A stretch of DNA of 35,489 bases from an uncultured Isosphaeraceae bacterium (GCA_937858365.1 CALLYK010000548.1:1-35489), one strand, 5' to 3'. Shown: positions 5,322 through 18,840, counted from the first letter of the stretch. A program made the numbers and translations. Notes: generated from the letters alone by a model not told the origin.

Positions 5322-5834
5322 CTAAAGCCAGACTTCCAACGCGCGCTTGCTCGCGGCATCAAGTTTCTGGATGTCGGGGATCAGGTAGCGGACCCCCTGG
5401 CCATCAACCAGCAAGGCGCGTCGCGGGCCGATCTGCCTCACGTCGTCGTCGCCGTTGATGATGATTTTCACGTCCCCACGATCCGTGCGCAGGTCCCATT
5501 CGGTCGGGTGGGACTCGCCGTGGACCTTGATGATCTTGGTGATCACCGGGATGAACTCGCGCCGGGCCAGGTCGGCCTCCAAGATCGAGCGCACGGGTTC
5601 GGCCAGGGAGGCCAGATCGTCGATGAGGAAGAGTTCTTTGCCGTCGGCGTCCAGGAGGGAGATGAAGCGAGACGGCTCGTTGACGGGAAAGGCCCGGACC
5701 GGTTCCACGCCGAGATGCCGGCGCCCTTCGGAATCGATCAAGACGAGGCGACCGAACTCATCATGTTTTAGGCCGAAACGCTGGTCCATCGCCGTCGGTC
5801 CTTCGCTCGCGGCCGAGGCCGCGGGTCCGTTCAT
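5322..5834 (-). CDS. DUF1854 family protein, cyanophycin-locus associated
   Basis: A soluble protein of 170 residues with the DUF1854 signature: DEFGRLVLIDSEGRRHLGV, then VRAFPVNEP, a central acidic LLDADGKELFLIDDL, and WDLRTDRGD near the C-terminal third. Its ATG overlaps the stop codon of the upstream ABC transporter gene (ATGA at 5834-5831), so the two are translationally coupled and probably work together. A second possible start is the Met at residue 16, but the overlap favours the first. From general knowledge, DUF1854 proteins occur next to this type of ABC transporter in cyanophycin gene clusters of other bacteria. The presence of three cphA-type genes in this window supports the same association here. 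Biochemical function is unknown. Confidence 0.85.
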   Translation of the reverse strand: MNGPAASAASEGPTAMDQRFGLKHDEFGRLVLIDSEGRRHLGVEPVRAFPVNEPSRFISLLDADGKELFLIDDLASLAEPVRSILEADLARREFIPVITKIIKVHGESHPTEWDLRTDRGDVKIIINGDDDVRQIGPRRALLVDGQGVRYLIPDIQKLDAASKRALEVWL

Positions 5835-8388: not shown

Positions 8389-10257
8389 GTGGCGAGCATT
8401 GGGTCCATCCGGCGTCTGGAAGGGTCGCATCCGTGGGGGCGAAACCGGGCCATCGCGGCCGTCGTGAACGGCCTGCCCACTCGTCCGTTATCTTCTGACC
8501 AGGTGGGACCGTTGGTCGCGGCCTTGAACGCCCTTCATCTGCCACCCTATCTGAAAGGCGCGGGGGATCGCCTCCGGGAAGACCTCACCCCAGACGCTTC
8601 CGCGACCGACCTTCTCCTGGGCCTTGTACATGCTTTCCATTTCGTGACACGTGAGTTCTCAGGTGAGGCCCGGGCCGTGGCCTCGGAGACCGTTGTCATT
8701 GAGGCCGAGGAACACGCCTTCACCGAGGCTTGCCTGGAATCGGCCTTGCGTGTGCTCAAAGGGGCTTCGGACGTTGCCGCCGAGTTCGATCGTTTGGCGG
8801 ACCTGGAATGCGAAATCTGTTACGCGATGGCGTCGACCAAGGTCCTCGCGGCGGCCCGGGCGCGCGGGGTCCCCGTTTATCGCCTCGACGACGGCAGCCG
8901 CATGCAGCTCGGCGAAGGCCGCCTCCAGCAGCGAGTGGCCAAGGGTGTGACTTCGCGGACCGGTCACATCGCCGAGCAGATCGCCACGAACAAGGCGTAT
9001 GTGAAGACGCTCTGGGCGCGGGTCGGCGTGCCGATCGCCGACGGCCAAGCCGTGAACGACGCGCCCGAGGCCGTCGCCGTGGCCGAGCGGGTCGGTTGGC
9101 CGGTCGTCATCAAGCCGGCCGACTCCGACTGGGGCCTCGGCGTCTCAATGCGCCTGGCCGACGCCGACCAGGTCCAAGCGGCCTACCGGCGCGCTCGCGA
9201 GTACTCCGAAAGCGTGCTGGTCGAGCGTCATCTGGAAGGGGCCTGGCATCGTCTCCTCATCATCGACGATCGCCTCGTGGCGGCCCTCCGCCGAGACCCG
9301 GCGACCGTGACGGGCGACGGCACAAGCGCGATCGCGCGCCTCGTCGAGCGGGCCAATGAGGACGAGCGTCGCGGGCCGGATTCTCGCTGGCCGCTCCGCC
9401 TCATGGAACTGGGCGACTTGGAGCGGGAGTACCTCGGCCGGATGGGGATGGGCCCCGAGACCGTGCTGGAAGCGGGTCGACAAGTCGTGCTCCGGCCGAT
9501 CGCCCACACCGATTCCGGTTCGATCAGCACCGAAGTCAGCGACCTCGTGCATCCATCGACGGTCCATCTCGCGCGCGACGCCGTGAAAGTCGTCGGTCTG
9601 GACATCGCGGGCCTCGACGTGATCGCCCAGGACATCTCCCGGCCGCTCGCCGAACAAGGGGGCGGCTTCCTCGAAATCAACCCCTATCCCGCGCTCTTCC
9701 TTCATCTGGAACCGATCTGCGACCGCCCCCGACCGGTGGGCGAGGCGATCGTCGCGTCGCTTTTTCCGGGCACGTCCAACGGTCGTGTGCCACTCTTCGT
9801 AGTCATGGGAGAGGACCCGGCGCGGGCCTTGGTCGCCCCCCTGGCTGACTCCCTCCGCGAACAGGGCGTCCAGGTCGCGACGTCGACCGCCTTCGAGACC
9901 TTCCTGGGTGACCAACGCCTGAGACCGACCGGCCCGACGCCGGCCGATCGTCTCGCCGCGATGATGTTTCACCCCAGGACCGAGGCGGCCGTGCTCGCCC
10001 TCAGCCCGGCCGAGTTCTTCGCCCACGGCCTGGGAACGGACCAGTGCGCCGTCCTTCTGATGGTCGGACCTTTCGAGTCTCAACATCTCGCCGCGTTGGC
10101 CCACCTGCCAGGTTCAGCGCGTCGCGTCGTCGTCGCGAGTGACGACCATTTTTGGGACGAAACACTTGACCCCGCGCGCGTTGTTCGGGCCGACGATTGG
10201 GTCGTCGGGGCGCTCAAGGGGTTGGATCGGGATTGCAGTTCGCCCAAGACTTCATAG
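8389..10257 (+). CDS. Cyanophycin synthetase-like ATP-grasp protein with degenerate, truncated Mur-ligase region (paralogue 1)
   Basis: From the GTG at 8389 the product has 622 residues, close to the 618 of the next gene, and begins like it (SIRRLEGSHPW). A GTG at 8317 would add 24 residues. Residues 1-200 match the CphA N domain but lack its HxxEH motif. Residues about 200-460 are the ATP-grasp domain: K242 (VVIKP), D410, E429 and N431 are retained, so nucleotide and metal binding look possible. The CphA loop RRNANLSTGG is replaced by RPIAHTDSGS, and NAGPG by NPYPA. Residues 464-560 align with the start of the CphA Mur-ligase domain (GRVP, then HPRTEAAV for HPFVEAAV). The P-loop GVNGKTTT has become GEDPARAL, and the rest of the ligase is missing. 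It probably forms amide bonds by ATP-grasp chemistry alone or modulates the full-length CphA. Confidence 0.85.
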   Translation: MASIGSIRRLEGSHPWGRNRAIAAVVNGLPTRPLSSDQVGPLVAALNALHLPPYLKGAGDRLREDLTPDASATDLLLGLVHAFHFVTREFSGEARAVASETVVIEAEEHAFTEACLESALRVLKGASDVAAEFDRLADLECEICYAMASTKVLAAARARGVPVYRLDDGSRMQLGEGRLQQRVAKGVTSRTGHIAEQIATNKAYVKTLWARVGVPIADGQAVNDAPEAVAVAERVGWPVVIKPADSDWGLGVSMRLADADQVQAAYRRAREYSESVLVERHLEGAWHRLLIIDDRLVAALRRDPATVTGDGTSAIARLVERANEDERRGPDSRWPLRLMELGDLEREYLGRMGMGPETVLEAGRQVVLRPIAHTDSGSISTEVSDLVHPSTVHLARDAVKVVGLDIAGLDVIAQDISRPLAEQGGGFLEINPYPALFLHLEPICDRPRPVGEAIVASLFPGTSNGRVPLFVVMGEDPARALVAPLADSLREQGVQVATSTAFETFLGDQRLRPTGPTPADRLAAMMFHPRTEAAVLALSPAEFFAHGLGTDQCAVLLMVGPFESQHLAALAHLPGSARRVVVASDDHFWDETLDPARVVRADDWVVGALKGLDRDCSSPKTS

Positions 10258-10265
10258 GTTTCCCC

Positions 10266-12122
10266 ATGCGCGTAGTATCCCTCCGACGACTCGAAGGGGT
10301 AAGCCCTTGGTCGTCCCGTCGGACCTTGGCCGCGACCCTGACGGACATGCCCGCCGGCGAGGTCCCGGCGCCGGCCGTCGCCACCTTGATCAACGCCCTC
10401 GGAAAACTCACGGTCCCGATCGCCTTGAAGGGCCCGGATGAGCGCCTTCGCGCAGACCTTTCGCGCGACGCCTCCTGGCCGGCCCTCCTCGCGGCCCTCG
10501 TGAGGGAATGGCAATTCCTCACGCGCGAATTTCGGGGCGAGGCCTTCGTATCGTCACGACCGCGAGGAAACCAAGTCACGCTGGCGTTCGAGTGCGAGGA
10601 GTTCGCCCTGGCGGAGCCTTGCCTGCGGAGCGCTTTGGAGGTCGCGGGAGAACTGATCTCCGGTCGGCCGATCGACCTGGGCCCACTGGTCGATCGGCTC
10701 TCCGAGATCGCGTATGACGTCTGTTTCGGCGGCCAAAACACGGCCATCGCCGACGCCGCGCGAGCGCGTGGCGTCCCCTGCCGTCGGGTCATGGGGGACG
10801 GCCTGGTCCAAATCGGTGAAGGCGTCCACCTCAAGCGGTTCTCGGCCGGGACCACGAGCCGAACCGACCACTTGGCCGTCGGCCTTTCCACCAACAAGGC
10901 CAATATCCGGGAGCTTTGGTCGGGGATCGGCGTGCCGATCGCGGAAGGCCGCCTCGTACGCGACGCCGACGACGCGGTCCGCGCCGCCGAAGCGATCCGT
11001 CCGCCCATCGCCGTGAAACCGGCCGACTCCGACTACGGCCGAGGCGTCACGCTCGACCTGACAACGAGCGACCAGGTGCGAGCCGCCTATCACGAGGCCC
11101 TCGCCTATTCGTCAAGCGGCGGCGTGCTGGTCGAGCGTTCTCTGAAGGGCCTCTGGCACCGCTTGCTCGTGGTGGAAGATCGACTCGTCGCGGCCCTGCG
11201 TCGGGAACCGGCGACGGTCGTCGGCAACGGGAAAAGCACCATCGCCGAACTCGTCGTCGAGGCCAACCGCGACCCCAGACGCGGCCCCGATTCTCGTTGG
11301 CCCTTGTATCAGATGGAACTAGGCGACGCCGAACGCGTCCACCTGGCCCGCTTCGGCCGAACGTTCGAGAGTGTCCCGGAGGAAGGAGAGCGCGTCGCCT
11401 TGCGCGCAATCGCCCACACCGAGACAGGCGCGACCAGCCGCGACGTGCTCGACATCGTGCATCCCGATACGATCGCCTTGGCGTTGGATGCCGTGCGTGT
11501 CGTCGGCCTCGACGTGGCGGGGCTCGACGTGATCGCCGAGGACCTCTCGCGTCCGCTCCACGAGCAAGGTGGCGGCTTCCTGGAAATCAACGCGGGACCC
11601 GCTTTGTTCCTGCACTTCGAGCCGATCTCCGACCCGCCGCGTCCAGTGGCCGAGGCGATCGTGGACGCGCTCATGCCGCCGCCAAGTACGGGACGAGTGC
11701 CGCTCATCCTGATGATCGGTCGCGAACGTGCCGACGCGCTGGCGATCCAGGCCGTCGCGATCTTGGAACGACTCGGCAAACGCGCGGCCATTTCGACCGG
11801 CGAGGGGACGATGTGCGGGACGAGGCGATTGCACCCGCGAGAAGCGACCCCGCCGGGACGGCTCCACGCGATGATGACCTTTCCTCGGACCGAAGCGGCG
11901 GTCCTGGCGGCGTCGATGCGTGACCTTCTGGAATGGGGCCCAGGGACCGACCGCGCCCACCTGTTGGTCCTTGCCGACCTCGATGAACCGGAAGACGAAA
12001 GCGAATGGCGAGCCTGGTTCGAGAATATGCGCACCGGGACGCCCCTGGTCTGGTCGGCCGAGGACGGCGACCCCCAGGCCCTCGAAACGCTGATCGAGCG
12101 GGCCATCGCGGCGTCCCCTTGA
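10266..12122 (+). CDS. Cyanophycin synthetase-like ATP-grasp protein with degenerate, truncated Mur-ligase region (paralogue 2)
   Basis: From the ATG at 10266 the product has 618 residues; an upstream start at 10197 would overlap the previous gene. Only 8 bases separate the two, so they are an operon. It is a tandem duplicate: N domain without HxxEH, then ATP-grasp with K251 (IAVKP), D421, E440 and N442 retained. It keeps NAGPA, closer to CphA than paralogue 1. The substrate loop reads RAIAHTETGA where CphA has RRNANLSTGG. After residue 475 it again shows GRVP and FPRTEAAV, but MIGRERADAL replaces the P-loop, and the chain ends about 140 residues into the Mur-ligase region. Intact frames and selective loss of the same elements in both copies argue against pseudogenes. 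They may act as a pair, each with its own substrate. The gene is convergent with the APC permease. Confidence 0.85.
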   Translation: MRVVSLRRLEGVSPWSSRRTLAATLTDMPAGEVPAPAVATLINALGKLTVPIALKGPDERLRADLSRDASWPALLAALVREWQFLTREFRGEAFVSSRPRGNQVTLAFECEEFALAEPCLRSALEVAGELISGRPIDLGPLVDRLSEIAYDVCFGGQNTAIADAARARGVPCRRVMGDGLVQIGEGVHLKRFSAGTTSRTDHLAVGLSTNKANIRELWSGIGVPIAEGRLVRDADDAVRAAEAIRPPIAVKPADSDYGRGVTLDLTTSDQVRAAYHEALAYSSSGGVLVERSLKGLWHRLLVVEDRLVAALRREPATVVGNGKSTIAELVVEANRDPRRGPDSRWPLYQMELGDAERVHLARFGRTFESVPEEGERVALRAIAHTETGATSRDVLDIVHPDTIALALDAVRVVGLDVAGLDVIAEDLSRPLHEQGGGFLEINAGPALFLHFEPISDPPRPVAEAIVDALMPPPSTGRVPLILMIGRERADALAIQAVAILERLGKRAAISTGEGTMCGTRRLHPREATPPGRLHAMMTFPRTEAAVLAASMRDLLEWGPGTDRAHLLVLADLDEPEDESEWRAWFENMRTGTPLVWSAEDGDPQALETLIERAIAASP

Positions 12123-12168: not shown

Positions 12169-14064
12169 TCAATCGTCGGCGTCCACCACCCCGGAAGTCC
12201 CGAGATACCAGGGGACGCTGACGATCGCGACCCGCCGTAACCCGGCGAAACGCAGGTAGGCCTTGATGACCGCGGCCGTCTGATTGTGCAATAGGTAGTG
12301 ATACCAGCGAGTGCCAACCATGTCGGGCACGAGGACCGCCACCTCGCGCGTTGGGTGGGCGCGCTCTAGGTCCCTGGCGACCTGGATCAGCGGCCCATAG
12401 AGCCGACGATAAGGCGAGAAGATCACGATCAGACGAGGCGCGGACAGGCCCGCCGCCTGGGCGGGTCCCCGCACGCGACGCTCCCAGGAGTCCTCCAGTT
12501 CCAGCACCCCTTGCTCCTCACCGGCGATGTGCAGGGCGTACACGTCCGGCGAGACGGCCAGTGCGACCCGGAGCGCCTTGCGCGTGATCCGGCTCCACCC
12601 GCGGATGGGCATCAGCACGACCGGCCGTTCCAAATTGGTCGCGTCGAGTGGTTCGTCGGTAGTAAGTTCGCTGAAGACGGCTCGGTAATGCCTCCGAACC
12701 CCGAGGAACAAGGCGAGCGAGCCGGGGACCAGGATCGCCGTGATCCAGGCCCCTTCAGCGAACTTCGCGACCAGGACGACCGCCAAGGTCACTCCGGTGC
12801 AAGCCGCGCCCGCGGCGTTGATCGCCATGGCCGCGTTGGCGCCGGGCCCGCCGACGCGCCTCCAGTGGACCACCATTCCCGCCTGGGAAAGCGTGAAGGC
12901 CAGAAAGGCCCCGACGGCGAAGAGCGGGATCAACGCGTCGGTGATCCCGCCGAAGACGACGAGCAGCAGGCCCGAGAGGACCGCCAGGACCACGATGCCC
13001 TGGGAGTAGACCAGCCGCCGGCCCCTGTGCGCAAAGGCGTTGGGCAAGAACCCGTCCTGGGCGACGACGCGACATAGCCTGGGAAAGTCGGCGAACCCTG
13101 TGTTGGCCGAGAGCGCGAGCACGGCGAGCGTGGAACCGATCGTGAGGTAGTAAATGGTCCCCCGCCCGACGATCGCCGCCACGAGTTGCGAGAGCACGCT
13201 CTGATAGCCAGGCTCTCCCGGCACGGTGGCCGCGATGCCGTAGGCCCCGCAAAGGTAAGCGATCCCCGCCAAGAGCACCGCCAGTAAGACGACGATGGCC
13301 GTCAGGGTTCGACGCGCGTTGCGGATCGTGGGCTGGCGAAAGGCCGCCACGCCGTTGCTCACGGCTTCCACGCCGGTCATTGCCGTGCATCCACTCGCGA
13401 ACGCCTTGAGCAAGACCCAAGGACCGGCCGCCGCGACGGCCAAGGGAATGGTAGGAGGGGCCTCCCAAGGAGTCGGCCGACCTCCAGAGATGAGTGCCTT
13501 GACGACCCCCACCGTCAAGACGACCAGCAACGACACCAGAAAGAAGTAGGTCGGCACCATGAAGGCCAGGCCCGACTCGCGCGCGCCCCGCAGATTGATG
13601 AGTGTGATCAACACCAAGGTCGCCAGGCAGAGAGGCAACGTGTACGGCTGAAGCGCCGGGATCGCCGAGACCAAGGCGCCGATGCCCGCGGAAATCCCGA
13701 CGGCCACGACCAAGACGTAGTCGAGCATCAGGGCCGCCGCGGCGAGCAGTCCCAACGAGGTCCCCAGGTTCTCTTTGGCGACGGTGTACGACCCGCCGCC
13801 ACTCGGATACGCTGCAATCGTCTGTCGGTAGGAGACCGCCACGACGATGAGTAAGGCGATGATCAAGGCGCTGATCGGCCCGATGTAGGCGAGACCCGCG
13901 GCCCCCAAAGGGATCAGGAGTGTGAGCGCGGCCTCGGGGCCATACGCGGAGGAGGCCAGCGCGTCGAGCCCGAGCATCGGAATGCCCGCGACCAGGCCGA
14001 CACGTTGTCCCTCCTCTTCCTCGGTCGCCAGGTGCTTGCCGAGGAGCCAATCCGCGACCTTCAT
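12169..14064 (-). CDS. APC superfamily permease, KimA-like, with C-terminal cytoplasmic domain
   Basis: From the ATG at 14064 the product has 631 residues; a longer frame to 14169 adds an Arg-rich stretch that looks non-native. About twelve membrane segments are visible, starting after HLATEEEEGQRVG. The GPISALIIALLIVV and AYPSGGGSYTVAKENLG segments are typical of the APC fold, the latter with the glycine-rich substrate region. A soluble domain of about 150 residues follows (from LERPVVLMPIRGWSR), with a UspA-like alternation of beta strands and helices, as in KimA-type potassium permeases. The substrate is therefore either K+ (by family resemblance) or an amino acid (by its place between cphA-type genes, where Arg or Asp uptake would make sense). 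I cannot decide. It is convergent with the cphA-like pair and divergent from the acyltransferase gene. Confidence 0.82.
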   Translation of the reverse strand: MKVADWLLGKHLATEEEEGQRVGLVAGIPMLGLDALASSAYGPEAALTLLIPLGAAGLAYIGPISALIIALLIVVAVSYRQTIAAYPSGGGSYTVAKENLGTSLGLLAAAALMLDYVLVVAVGISAGIGALVSAIPALQPYTLPLCLATLVLITLINLRGARESGLAFMVPTYFFLVSLLVVLTVGVVKALISGGRPTPWEAPPTIPLAVAAAGPWVLLKAFASGCTAMTGVEAVSNGVAAFRQPTIRNARRTLTAIVVLLAVLLAGIAYLCGAYGIAATVPGEPGYQSVLSQLVAAIVGRGTIYYLTIGSTLAVLALSANTGFADFPRLCRVVAQDGFLPNAFAHRGRRLVYSQGIVVLAVLSGLLLVVFGGITDALIPLFAVGAFLAFTLSQAGMVVHWRRVGGPGANAAMAINAAGAACTGVTLAVVLVAKFAEGAWITAILVPGSLALFLGVRRHYRAVFSELTTDEPLDATNLERPVVLMPIRGWSRITRKALRVALAVSPDVYALHIAGEEQGVLELEDSWERRVRGPAQAAGLSAPRLIVIFSPYRRLYGPLIQVARDLERAHPTREVAVLVPDMVGTRWYHYLLHNQTAAVIKAYLRFAGLRRVAIVSVPWYLGTSGVVDADD

Positions 14065-14248
14065 CGGTCTCTCCAACCCAAGGAACGATGGCCATCGGAA
14101 CTCACTGGGGTGGCCATCACGACGTCCGGGAGTCGCGGCGTCGCGCCCGCGAGACGAGTGACGACCCACGGTATCATCGCGGCCCGGTGTTTCCTATGCC
14201 GAGGGTCTCGTGCGTCTGTGCCGCCTGGTCGTTGGGGTCTGCGTCGCG

Positions 14249-14277: not shown

Positions 14278-15528
14278 GTGAATCGCGAAAAAACAGGACG
14301 CACGGCCGTGACCGCCGCCTTGGTCCCAAACGAGACGGTGACGGTGGCTTCCCCTCAAACCGTCCCCAAACCCGGAAGGCTCGATTCCATCGACCTTCTC
14401 AGAGGCGTTGTGATGATCATCATGTCGCTGGACCACGTCCGCGACTTCTTCTCGAACTTCCCCCACGACCCCACCAACCTGGACGAGACCTCCACCGCCC
14501 TCTTTTTCACGCGCTGGATCACGCACTATTGCGCCCCCACGTTCATCTTCCTGGCGGGCGGCAGCGCGTTCATTTACGGCAGTCGTGGCCGGTCGCGATC
14601 GCAGGTCGCCTGGTTCCTCTTCAGCCGAGGCCTTTGGCTCGTCGTGCTCGAATTGACGTTCGTGCGCTTCGGCTGGTTCTTCGACCTCCACTACCGCAAG
14701 ACGGTCGTGCAAGTGATCTGGGCGATCGGTTGGTCGATGGTCGTCTTGGCGCCCCTGGTGTATCTGCCGCGCTGGGCCATCATGACGTTCGGCTTGAGTC
14801 TGATCGTCATGCACAACATGTTCGACTGGATGGACGCCGACGCGATGGGCCACTGGCATTGGCTCGTTAAGGTGCTGCACGAACCCGGCAACATCCATCT
14901 CAGTGGGTCGCACCGCATCTTCGTCGCCTATCCCCTCATTCCTTGGATCGGCGTCCTGGCGGTCGGCTATGTTTGCGGACCCTTCCTGATCGACCCGGAA
15001 CCCAAGCGGCGGCGAACCCGACTCTTGGGGATTGGCCTCTTCCTGATCGCGAGCTTCGTCGTGCTCCGCGCCGGGAACTTCTACGGCGACACGTCCCCTT
15101 GGCGGCCGCAGGCGACCCCCTGGTTCACCTTCCTGGATTTCATCAATTGCGAGAAGTACCCCGCGTCGCTGCATTTCCTCTTGATGACCCTGGGCCCGGC
15201 CATCACCGCCCTGCCCTTGCTCGAGTTCGCCAACGGCCGGCTTGCCCGGGCCGTCGTGACCTTGGGGCGCGTGCCGCAGTTTTACTACGTCTTGCATCTT
15301 TACGCGATCCACGCGGCCATCGCGGCCTTCACGATCTTCCGCGTGGGGCCGATCAAGGCGCTCGAACTGGCGGAAGGGCCCTTCATCCCCACCCAAGACC
15401 ACGGCTATGCCCTCTGGGTGGTCTACCTGGTCTGGATCGGGATCGTGGTGTCGTTGTGGCCGGCCTGCCGCTGGTTCTCCGAGGTCAAACGCCGGCACCG
15501 CGACAGCGTCTTGCTCAGCTACCTCTAA
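14278..15528 (+). CDS. Multi-pass membrane protein, DUF1624/HGSNAT-type acyltransferase family
   Basis: A protein of 416 residues with about ten membrane segments. Residues 34-55 (RLDSIDLLRGVVMIIMSLDHVRD) are the hallmark start of the DUF1624 / heparan-alpha-glucosaminide N-acetyltransferase catalytic family, with the DLLRG motif and the SLDHVR histidine. These proteins transfer acyl groups across a membrane. The natural acceptor in bacteria is usually unknown. The start is GTG at 14278, directly after a TATAAT box, which suggests a short leader and no strong ribosome site. It lies between the APC permease (divergent) and the full-length cphA, with a 615-base gap after it. There is no direct evidence that it belongs to cyanophycin metabolism. 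Confidence 0.8.
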   Translation: MNREKTGRTAVTAALVPNETVTVASPQTVPKPGRLDSIDLLRGVVMIIMSLDHVRDFFSNFPHDPTNLDETSTALFFTRWITHYCAPTFIFLAGGSAFIYGSRGRSRSQVAWFLFSRGLWLVVLELTFVRFGWFFDLHYRKTVVQVIWAIGWSMVVLAPLVYLPRWAIMTFGLSLIVMHNMFDWMDADAMGHWHWLVKVLHEPGNIHLSGSHRIFVAYPLIPWIGVLAVGYVCGPFLIDPEPKRRRTRLLGIGLFLIASFVVLRAGNFYGDTSPWRPQATPWFTFLDFINCEKYPASLHFLLMTLGPAITALPLLEFANGRLARAVVTLGRVPQFYYVLHLYAIHAAIAAFTIFRVGPIKALELAEGPFIPTQDHGYALWVVYLVWIGIVVSLWPACRWFSEVKRRHRDSVLLSYL

Positions 15529-16143: not shown

Positions 16144-18840
16144 ATGGACATCCGTAAGGTCCTGGAACTCCGCGGTCCGAACATCTGGGCCCGGTTCCCC
16201 GTGCTGGAGGCCTGGGTCGATCTCGGCGGCCTCAAAGACACCGCCTCGAACGAAGTACCCGGCTTCAACGACCGCCTCATGGCCTGGTTGCCCACGATGA
16301 TCGAACACCGCTGTAGCGTCGGCGAACGCGGCGGCTTCTTCGAGCGACTCCGACGCGGGACCTATCCCGCCCACATCCTGGAACATGTTTGCTTGGAGTT
16401 GCAGTCCCTCGCGGGGACCCCCGTCGGCTTCGGCAAGGCCCGAGAGACCCACGAGGAAGGCGTTTACAAGGTCGTCGTTCGCTACAAGGAAGAAGCCCTC
16501 GGCCGCGCCGCCCTCGAAACGGCCAAGGCCCTTCTCCTGGCCGCCATCCACGACCAGCCTTTCGACGTGGCCGACGAGGTCCGCAAGCTCCGCGATCTGG
16601 CCCACGAGGTCTGCCTGGGACCAAGCACCGCCGCCATCGTCGAGGCCGCCCAGAAGCGCAACGTCCCCTTCAAACGCCTCAATGAGGGCAGCTTGATCCA
16701 ACTCGGGTGGGGATGGAAGCAGCGCCGGATTTGGACGGCCGAGACCAGCCGGACTTCCGCCATCGCCGAAGGGATCGCCCAGGACAAGGAACTGACGAGG
16801 CGCCTTCTGGCGGCGATCGGCGTGCCGGTCCCCGAAGGTCGGGCCGTGACCGACGCGGACGACGCCTGGGCCGCCGCCGAGGAGATTGAAGGTCCGGTGG
16901 TCGTCAAGCCGCAATACGGTAATCAAGGCCGAGGCGTGGCCACGAACCTAACGACCCGGGAACAGGTCGTCGCCGCATACGAAGCGGCCAAGGAGCACGG
17001 GTCCTCGATCGTCGTGGAGCGGTACGCGCCGGGGGACGACCATCGCATCCTCATCGTCGGCGGCAAGCTCGTGGCGGCGGCCAAGCGCGAGCCGGCACAA
17101 GTGATCGGCGACGGCGTCCGTACGGTCGGCGAGCTCGTCGCCGAGGTGAACAAGGACCCGCGCCGGAGCGACGGCCACTCCACCGTCTTGAGCCACATCA
17201 AGATCGACGCGATCGCGCTGGGCGTCTTGGCCGAACAGGGGCTCACGCCCGATTCGGTCCCGGCGTTCGATCGCAAGGTCCTGATCCGCCGGAACGCGAA
17301 CCTGAGCACGGGCGGCACAGCGATCGACGTGACCGACAAGGTCCATCCCGATGTGGTCGCGCGGGCCGTCGAAGCGGCGCGGATGGTGGGCCTGGACATC
17401 GCCGGTGTGGACCTCGTCTGCCAGGACATCAGCCGGCCGATCGAACCCCAGGGGGGCGCGATCGTCGAGGTGAACGCCGGGCCGGGCCTGCGGATGCACA
17501 TCGAACCCTCGGAAGGCCAACCTCGCCCCGTCGGCGAGGCGATCATCGATATGCTCTTCCCGCCTGGTGACGACGGCCGGGTCCCGGTCGTCGCCGTCAC
17601 CGGCGTGAACGGCAAGACGACCACGACTCGGTTGATCGCCCACCTCATCAAGGGCGCTGGGCTGAAGGTGGGCGTCACGCTGACCGACGGCATCTACATC
17701 GGCGACCGCCGGATCGATAACGGCGATTGCAGCGGCCCCCTGAGCGCCCAGACCGTGCTGATGCACCCGTTCGTCGAGGCGGCCGTGTGCGAGACGGCCC
17801 GAGGCGGCATCCTCCGCGCGGGTTTGGGCTTCGACGCCTGCGACGTCTCCGTCGTCACCAACATCGGCGAAGGGGACCACCTGGGCATCAACGACGTCGA
17901 GACGGTCGAGGAACTCGCGGCGGTGAAGGAGACGATTGTTTACGCGACCGCCCCGACCGGCACGGCCGTCCTCAAGGCCGACGACCCCCTGGTCGCCGGC
18001 ATGGCCCGCTGGGCACGCGGCAAGATCACGTTCTTCAGCCGCGACCCCGAGTTCCCGTTGATTCAGGAGCACCGAGCGGCCGGCGGTCGCGCCGTGATCG
18101 TCCGCGAGAACGCGGTCGTCCTGGCCGAAGGGGCCGACGAGACCTGCCTGATCAACCTGGCCGAGGTCCCCCTCACGTTCAACGGCCGGATCGGCTTCCA
18201 AGTCGAAAACGTGCTGGCGGCCGTCGGCGCCGCGTGGGCCCTGGACCTGGGCCACGAAACGATCCGCTCGGGCCTAGAGACGTTCACGAGTGAGCCCCAT
18301 CAGGTGCCCGGCCGCTTCAACGTCTTCGAGACCCGCGGCGCCACCGTGATCGTGGATTACAGTCACAACCCGTCGGCCGTGATCGCCCTGATCGAGGCCC
18401 TGGAGCACTTCCCGAACCCGCACCGGACGATCGCGTTCAGCGCGGCCGGCGACCGCCGCGATTGCGACATCGTCCGCCAGGGAGAATTGCTCGGCGGCGC
18501 TTTCGACCACGTGATCGTCTTCGAGGACTGCAATCGGGGCCGTCCCGAAGGCGAGGTGATGTCCCTCCTGAAGCAAGGGGCCGAACGAGGCCGACGCGCC
18601 AGCGCGATCACGGCGACCCCAGGCAACGAGCGTGAAACGATCGAATTGGCCCTGAGCGGCCTTCGACCGGGCCACTTGCTCGTGCTTCAACCCGACGACA
18701 TCGAAGCGACCGTCGCCTTCGTGAAGTCATGGCTCCTGGAACAGAGACCGACCCCGGAAAGGCCGCCCGCGGGGACCGTCGAATACGTAGCGGTCTCGGC
18801 GAGCGTGTCCGAGGTCATGCCCACGACCATCCTCGATTGA
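16144..18840 (+). CDS. cphA: Cyanophycin synthetase
   Basis: CphA makes multi-L-arginyl-poly-L-aspartate from Asp, Arg and ATP. The ATG at 16144 gives 898 residues beginning MDIRKVLELRGPN, the standard CphA opening; an upstream GTG at 15988 would add 52 non-homologous residues. The N domain (1-160) carries H77xxE80H81 in AHILEHVCLEL. ATP-grasp domain (about 205-470): K255 (VVVKP), RRNANLSTGG (382-391), D423, E442 and N444 with NAGPG. Mur-ligase domain (about 478-870): P-loop GVNGKTTT (487-494), ETARGGILRAGL (550-561), GEGDHLG, DYSHNP (738-743) and GDRRDCD (769-775). In the family, the ATP-grasp site extends the aspartate backbone and the Mur site attaches arginine to the side chain. All sites look intact. 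No cyanophycinase lies nearby. Confidence 0.96.
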   Translation: MDIRKVLELRGPNIWARFPVLEAWVDLGGLKDTASNEVPGFNDRLMAWLPTMIEHRCSVGERGGFFERLRRGTYPAHILEHVCLELQSLAGTPVGFGKARETHEEGVYKVVVRYKEEALGRAALETAKALLLAAIHDQPFDVADEVRKLRDLAHEVCLGPSTAAIVEAAQKRNVPFKRLNEGSLIQLGWGWKQRRIWTAETSRTSAIAEGIAQDKELTRRLLAAIGVPVPEGRAVTDADDAWAAAEEIEGPVVVKPQYGNQGRGVATNLTTREQVVAAYEAAKEHGSSIVVERYAPGDDHRILIVGGKLVAAAKREPAQVIGDGVRTVGELVAEVNKDPRRSDGHSTVLSHIKIDAIALGVLAEQGLTPDSVPAFDRKVLIRRNANLSTGGTAIDVTDKVHPDVVARAVEAARMVGLDIAGVDLVCQDISRPIEPQGGAIVEVNAGPGLRMHIEPSEGQPRPVGEAIIDMLFPPGDDGRVPVVAVTGVNGKTTTTRLIAHLIKGAGLKVGVTLTDGIYIGDRRIDNGDCSGPLSAQTVLMHPFVEAAVCETARGGILRAGLGFDACDVSVVTNIGEGDHLGINDVETVEELAAVKETIVYATAPTGTAVLKADDPLVAGMARWARGKITFFSRDPEFPLIQEHRAAGGRAVIVRENAVVLAEGADETCLINLAEVPLTFNGRIGFQVENVLAAVGAAWALDLGHETIRSGLETFTSEPHQVPGRFNVFETRGATVIVDYSHNPSAVIALIEALEHFPNPHRTIAFSAAGDRRDCDIVRQGELLGGAFDHVIVFEDCNRGRPEGEVMSLLKQGAERGRRASAITATPGNERETIELALSGLRPGHLLVLQPDDIEATVAFVKSWLLEQRPTPERPPAGTVEYVAVSASVSEVMPTTILD

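Follow-up and report, generated by a model that had tools for sequence, protein, structure and literature searches.

Tandem CphA paralogues retaining a Mur-ligase core relic in an uncultured Isosphaeraceae bacterium

Two adjacent genes in a 35,489-nucleotide stretch of DNA from an uncultured Isosphaeraceae bacterium (the whole stretch is referred to here as the window) encode paralogues, which we call P1 and P2, of cyanophycin synthetase (CphA), an enzyme of nitrogen storage. Both have a shortened Mur-ligase (M) domain, raising the question of what reaction such proteins could still carry out and why the remnant of the ligase persists. For comparison, we refer to PDB 7LG5 and 7WAC for CphA1 (family TIGR02068), to 7TA5, 8FXH, and 8FXI for CphA2, a cyanobacterial β-Asp-Arg polymerase, and to 3LN6/3LN7 for GshF, a bifunctional glutathione synthetase.

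Gene layout and the Mur-ligase relic

P1 (8317..10257, plus strand) was recognized from its ORF, its alignment, and its membership in a clade of M-dead proteins; it comprises 646 aa counted from the first GTG, and its start is probably the GTG at 8389. P2 (10266..12122, plus strand), recognized from ORF and alignment, comprises 618 aa from an ATG at 10266, in a frame that ORF calling found open from 10197. The P1 stop codon (10255-10257) is followed after 8 bp by the P2 ATG, and the P2 stop lies 46 bp from the end of the next, opposite-strand gene. Each frame is uninterrupted up to a genuine stop codon, in agreement with the initial annotation of this locus. Because these stops are abutted by neighboring genes, no lid is concealed in another frame or downstream. 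A frameshift or assembly truncation was ruled out on the same grounds, together with the presence of the same loss in relatives.

The surrounding genes point to cyanophycin metabolism. Divergent from P1 is a cyanophycin metabolism-associated ABC transporter (NF052233; 5831..8143, minus strand; 1061 bits against a cut-off of 880), a type that adjoins CphA paralogues in many related loci. Beside it is a cyanophycin metabolism-associated DUF1854 family protein (NF052234, DUF1854 in Pfam; 5322..5834, minus strand; 171.5 bits against a cut-off of 150). Approximately 4 kb downstream of P1/P2, the window encodes a full-length canonical CphA (16144..18840, plus strand; 1084 bits for TIGR02068 against a cut-off of 850) in which the G and M sites are intact and the N-domain HxxEH motif is present. 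Between P2 and this gene are an amino acid permease (AA_permease_2) and an HGSNAT-type membrane protein (12169-14169, minus strand, and 14278-15528, plus strand); HGSNAT relatives also adjoin M-dead CphA copies in the related loci L217 and L218.

In each paralogue, an ATP-grasp (G) domain, delimited by residue alignment in TeCphA1 numbering (P1, 8758..9780; P2, 10662..11690; both plus strand), precedes a Mur-ligase core relic that was delimited by alignment, AlphaFold, and profile comparison (P1, 9781..10254, from GRVP to the protein end; P2, 11691..12119; both plus strand). The interval 9778-12122, first described as the relic of both proteins, actually spans the P1 relic and the whole of P2. 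Aligned with the window's own CphA, P1 and P2 have GRVP and, at the same spacing, GDQRL/GTRRL for GDRRI. The CphA P-loop GVNGKTTT is replaced by GEDPARAL in P1 (9808-9831, plus strand) and GRERADAL in P2 (11718-11741, plus strand), and HPFVEAAV reads HPRTEAAV in P1 (9970-9993, plus strand) and FPRTEAAV in P2 (11880-11903, plus strand). The alignment bears out all the landmarks listed in the initial annotation for both paralogues.

One loss calls for a refinement. The ETARGG motif of the active-site segment is gone as claimed, but the stretch is not deleted: CETARGGILRAGLGFD of CphA is swapped in place for LALSPAEFFAHGLGTD or LAASMRDLLEWGPGTD, and the GLGxD motif that follows is retained as GLGTD in P1 and GPGTD in P2. 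The C-terminal part of the ligase is missing, and both proteins end ≈250 to 260 residues short of the CphA end. Neither protein has an active Mur-ligase site (GxxGKT P-loop, ETARGG, GDHL) or a lid, and the earlier deduction that side-chain arginylation should be impossible for P1 and P2 alone is sound.

Profile and structure comparisons both connect the tail to CphA. With E values of about 1e-68 to 1e-73, the phmmer alignments of P1 and P2 with CphA1 extend into the M domain. Another CphA model, from NCBIfam, matches residues 117-592 and 25-597 of P1 and P2, respectively, well into that domain; the TIGR02068 scores (319.6 and 335.5 bits) are below the curated cut-off of 850. Fold evidence for the relic came from a whole-model fold search and from a profile comparison of the relic only. 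The AlphaFold models (mean pLDDT 78.9 for P1 and 82.8 for P2) give the tail an alternating strand/helix fold, with pLDDT mostly 85 to 95 over approximately its first 70 residues. They align almost end to end with the CphA1 and CphA2 structures (about 580-660 columns), at an RMSD of about 9 to 10 Å that is high but expected when flexible domains are compared as a single body. This agrees with the Mur-ligase core remnant initially proposed, and an unrelated fold was not seen. The AlphaFold input alignments were mostly of cyanobacterial CphA1, so the modeled relic fold leans on CphA1. The relic-only comparison is cleaner evidence for Mur identity: when the relic family is compared by itself, with the G domain left out, hhalign matches it to the M domain of CphA at 99.8% (E 2.4e-29, 218 columns). 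By alignment and model together, the tail is a homologue of the CphA M core that lacks the P-loop, the ETARGG segment, and the lid.

P1 and P2 are 57% identical in the G domain and 43% identical in both the N domain and the relic, and the relic has a third-position GC content (0.76-0.79) similar to that found elsewhere in the two genes. Since the relic is conserved between the two proteins as well as the N domain is, it is being maintained rather than decaying. Its present role is likely structural, as previously suggested. The oligomer interface with CphA put forward at that time is not required, however, because the contact between N and M domains inside CphA1 (PMC9262961) would explain why the core was retained.

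Ancestry of the pair and its relation to CphA2

We gathered relatives from several hundred genomes and scored G and M residues for each CphA-like ORF. A careful G-domain tree joins P1 and P2 as sisters and places them within an M-dead clade whose other proteins come from a second family (support 100/98); the closest outgroups, L007 and L008, belong to the window's own family and are full-length paralogues with M intact. The M loss in P1 and P2 is thus a single event that predates their duplication and is common to relatives in the other family. Parallel loss in the two copies was dropped in favor of one ancestral loss, given their sister position in the M-dead clade. The initial annotation had argued from the same elements being lost in both copies, but this reflects common ancestry and hence is no evidence of parallel selection. 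Three clade members (L186, L188, and L193) retain a larger part of the M core, making P1 and P2 the most advanced erosion. L075, the counterpart of L007, has the same ABC/DUF1854 neighbors as P1/P2, which supports descent of the pair from such a paralogue.

The clade is rare: of 398 genomes sampled from the class, 7 have it, and the window genome is the sole case among 45 from its family. Such rarity is what would be expected of degenerate paralogues heading for loss without a specific function, an explanation that seems to us very improbable: the frames are intact, the composition is that of coding sequence, the catalytic residues are conserved, the relic matches the N domain in its conservation between P1 and P2, and the clade is old enough to be common to two families.

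Beyond this clade, a constraint that puts every planctomycete M-dead copy in one clade was rejected (AU p 0.0006, 50-row careful set), so M has been lost repeatedly. A search of GTDB contigs with patterns from the P1/P2 alignment, which were too strict as peptide patterns, found no relatives, and the matches in a plasmid collection were ordinary CphA and N-acetylglutaminylglutamine synthetase. A literature search limited to open-licence papers gave no report of such CphA paralogues in planctomycetes, which is weak evidence of absence.

A precedent for the architecture, missed in the initial annotation, is CphA2, which is published as likewise lacking the P-loop and lid of its M domain (PMC9427784) and in which the N-domain Cx19HxxEH motif is missing (PMC9262961). 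P1 and P2 resemble it in consisting of N, G, and truncated M domains over about 640 aa, with no P-loopM and no Mlid. Their N domains also lack the primer-making Cx19HxxEH motif, which the window's CphA has. Arg458 is replaced in both groups, by Phe in P1/P2 and by Tyr, Phe, or Asn in cyanobacterial CphA2. Unlike P1 and P2, which have His394, cyanobacterial CphA2 keeps Asn394 together with Arg323; position 267 is Lys in CphA2 and Trp/Tyr in P1/P2. P1 and P2 also differ in forming a tandem pair that adjoins ABC/DUF1854 genes.

The CphA2 comparison set, four cyanobacterial sequences of CphA2 type (L170-L173), branches far outside the planctomycete clade holding P1 and P2 (100/100, careful tree). 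A tree constrained to unite the P1/P2 clade with these sequences is rejected by the AU test on the careful set of 50 rows (p 0.0066), whereas the quick set of 80 rows does not reject it (p 0.157). Separate, convergent truncation is therefore probable on the trees, being favored rather than proven. The CphA2-like architecture was already known, and P1/P2 probably represent a CphA2-like enzyme of separate origin, in tandem, in a bacterium whose gene content and relatives point to a planctomycete. Because P1 and P2 are not in the CphA2 clade, the CphA2 substrate cannot be transferred to them by descent.

The ATP-grasp site and the incoming unit

In TeCphA1, K220, K261, R309, D431, and E450 interact with ATP, metal, and the end of the chain. 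The incoming Asp is bound at its β-carboxylate by N394 and R323 and at its α-carboxylate by R458; alanine at N394, R323, or R458 reduces activity (PMC9427784). In TeCphA1 numbering, K220, K261, R309, R323, D431, E450, and N452 are retained in both P1 and P2. The substrate site is altered, a point absent from the initial annotation. Both proteins have Asn394 to His, Gly456 to Ala, and Arg458 to Phe substitutions, His267 is replaced by Trp in P1 and Tyr in P2, and Ser396 is replaced by Asp/Glu. Only one of the three Asp contacts, R323, is kept. Compared with CphA1, P1 and P2 are homologous over the N domain, the G domain, and the first half of M but lack the M active site, the lid, and two of the three Asp contacts, and fall below the TIGR02068 cut-off.

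Our leading explanation, to which we give somewhat less than an even chance, is that P1 and P2 are single-site, M-dead ligases adding a preformed unit such as β-Asp-Arg, with the relic as a scaffold. The G domain would use ATP to activate the C-terminal carboxylate of a chain resembling cyanophycin, and the incoming nucleophile would be a preformed unit, most likely β-Asp-Arg from cyanophycinase, instead of free Asp, so that the arginylation site would not be needed. The proteins would thus work like cyanobacterial CphA2 but stem from an independent truncation, that of a CphA paralogue in planctomycetes. The M relic would be kept for N-domain packing or as an oligomer surface and not for catalysis.

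In favor of this explanation, P1 and P2 have the architecture and length of CphA2, the N-domain motif is absent, and the catalytic G residues are kept. The R458 change is shared with CphA2, and M-dead copies without an M-only partner (see below) nearly always lose R458. The neighboring genes are the cyanophycin-associated ABC and DUF1854 genes, and the relic is conserved like the N domain. Against it, CphA2 keeps N394 and P1/P2 do not, positions 267 and 458 also resemble GshF, and cyanophycinase was found in the window's incomplete genome only as a cyanophycinase-like fragment. The genome also carries two genes of the asparaginase-2 family, which includes the isoaspartyl dipeptidase IaaA. These genes and the fragment are consistent with a dipeptide pool but do not prove one.

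The resemblance to GshF, whose ATP-grasp domain adds glycine, bears on the main rival, which we consider rather unlikely: that P1 and P2 are peptide-amino acid ligases for some other amino acid, such as a small neutral one, and would thereby make, cap, or modify either a peptide resembling cyanophycin or a different polymer. The ATP-grasp domain of the clade would first have adapted, in an ancestor of full length, to a monomer other than aspartate, and the useless Mur site would then have eroded to a scaffold. Two of the three Asp contacts are changed, as are S396 and G456, and residues 267 (Trp/Tyr) and 458 (Phe) are of GshF type, aromatic and non-Arg, respectively. P1 and P2 also share the ATP-grasp fold with GshF (TM about 0.4), but they differ from it in carrying a CphA-type N domain and an M relic. 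No γ-glutamylcysteine ligase domain was found in P1/P2, the Pfam matches being to ATP-grasp models only.

The timing of the changes also speaks for an altered monomer. His394 occurs in the nearest full-length planctomycete outgroups of the careful tree (L007/L075, L008/L085, and L038/L074), paralogues that, unlike P1 and P2, have an intact M domain and of which L074 and L075 likewise lie beside ABC/DUF1854 genes. Its presence in the M-intact outgroups L007 and L008 suggests that the substrate site was changing before M was lost. Weighing against a new monomer, the genomic neighborhood is one of cyanophycin metabolism, R323 is retained, and true CphA2 also shows the R458 change.

Elsewhere in the window's genome, contig C284 (L004, 1123-3783) encodes a second full-length CphA paralogue of 886 aa with an intact M domain. 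It has Pro394, Ile323, and Trp458, none of the three Asp contacts, and its M-dead relatives are L080, L217, and L218.

Complementary domain loss among planctomycete relatives

Nine M-dead planctomycete copies, drawn from three lineages, have an M-only (G-deleted) CphA partner, and all nine retain the full set of three Asp contacts. The partner gene is adjacent except in one case, where it is carried by a different contig of that genome. Without such a partner, R458 is lost in 36 of 38 copies and kept in 2. The contrast in R458 (Fisher p 4e-8) counts sequences rather than independent events, under a grouping drawn up while viewing the same residue data. By lineage, three stand against about four, and there is one exception, L213; an M-only copy is present elsewhere in its genome, in L214.

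These counts bear on whether P1 and P2 might instead add Asp, with the M site of the downstream full-length CphA arginylating in trans, perhaps in a mixed oligomer formed through the relic. A full-length-type CphA is present in all seven sampled genomes that carry the P1/P2 clade, and real split pairs of G-only and M-only proteins seem to occur in relatives. The G-only members of those pairs, however, keep three of three Asp contacts in 9 of 9 cases and P1/P2 keep one of three, and the window contains no M-only partner for P1 or P2. We therefore judge this arrangement distinctly improbable, and addition of a preformed unit by P1 and P2 stays our leading explanation.

Several other arrangements were observed among the relatives. 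Adjacent complementary pairs, in which one copy has an intact ATP-grasp domain and a dead M domain and the other a deleted ATP-grasp lid and an intact M domain, occur in L076 (5971-10506), L083 (5814-10907), L082 (1-7495), and L219-L223, mostly adjoining ABC/DUF1854 genes. Each pair resembles a cyanophycin synthetase divided between two proteins. M-only paralogues of 640-830 aa, with G deleted or dead, lie beside ABC/DUF1854 genes with no adjacent G-only partner in L227 (4164-6095), L228 (4441-6372), L229 (4320-6242), L230 (3637-5682), L070, L073, and L225. The paralogues in L071 (5743-7911) and L072 (5711-7771) are dead at both G and M and keep the N-domain HxxEH motif; possibly only a primer-making hydrolase is left.

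A further group has a changed substrate site with M not lost. In L236 (7114-9783), L239 (2820-5459), L240 (4147-6786), L019, and L030, a full-length second CphA stands in tandem with the canonical one and has an intact M domain, Gly for R323, and Leu for R458. The R323G-type M-dead copies in L066, L081, and L187-L208 are relatives of this L236-type protein. In more distant genomes of the phylum, L231 (3559-8103), L232 (3372-7872), and similar pairs have CphA directly followed by a Mur-ligase-only protein of 576-586 aa.

Truncated single-site cyanophycin synthetases have been described from cyanobacteria, and comparable architectures seem to have evolved several further times in a second phylum. 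That phylum also shows the mirror-image loss, represented by M-only proteins, and some of its lineages have G-only and M-only genes side by side. The pattern that Asp contacts are kept with an M-only partner and otherwise lost allows the substrate of such enzymes to be predicted and the prediction to be tested. Enzymes of the P1/P2 type could serve to polymerize dipeptides or other monomers into cyanophycin-like materials, and the complementary domain loss across the planctomycete group may outweigh the pair in the window in interest.
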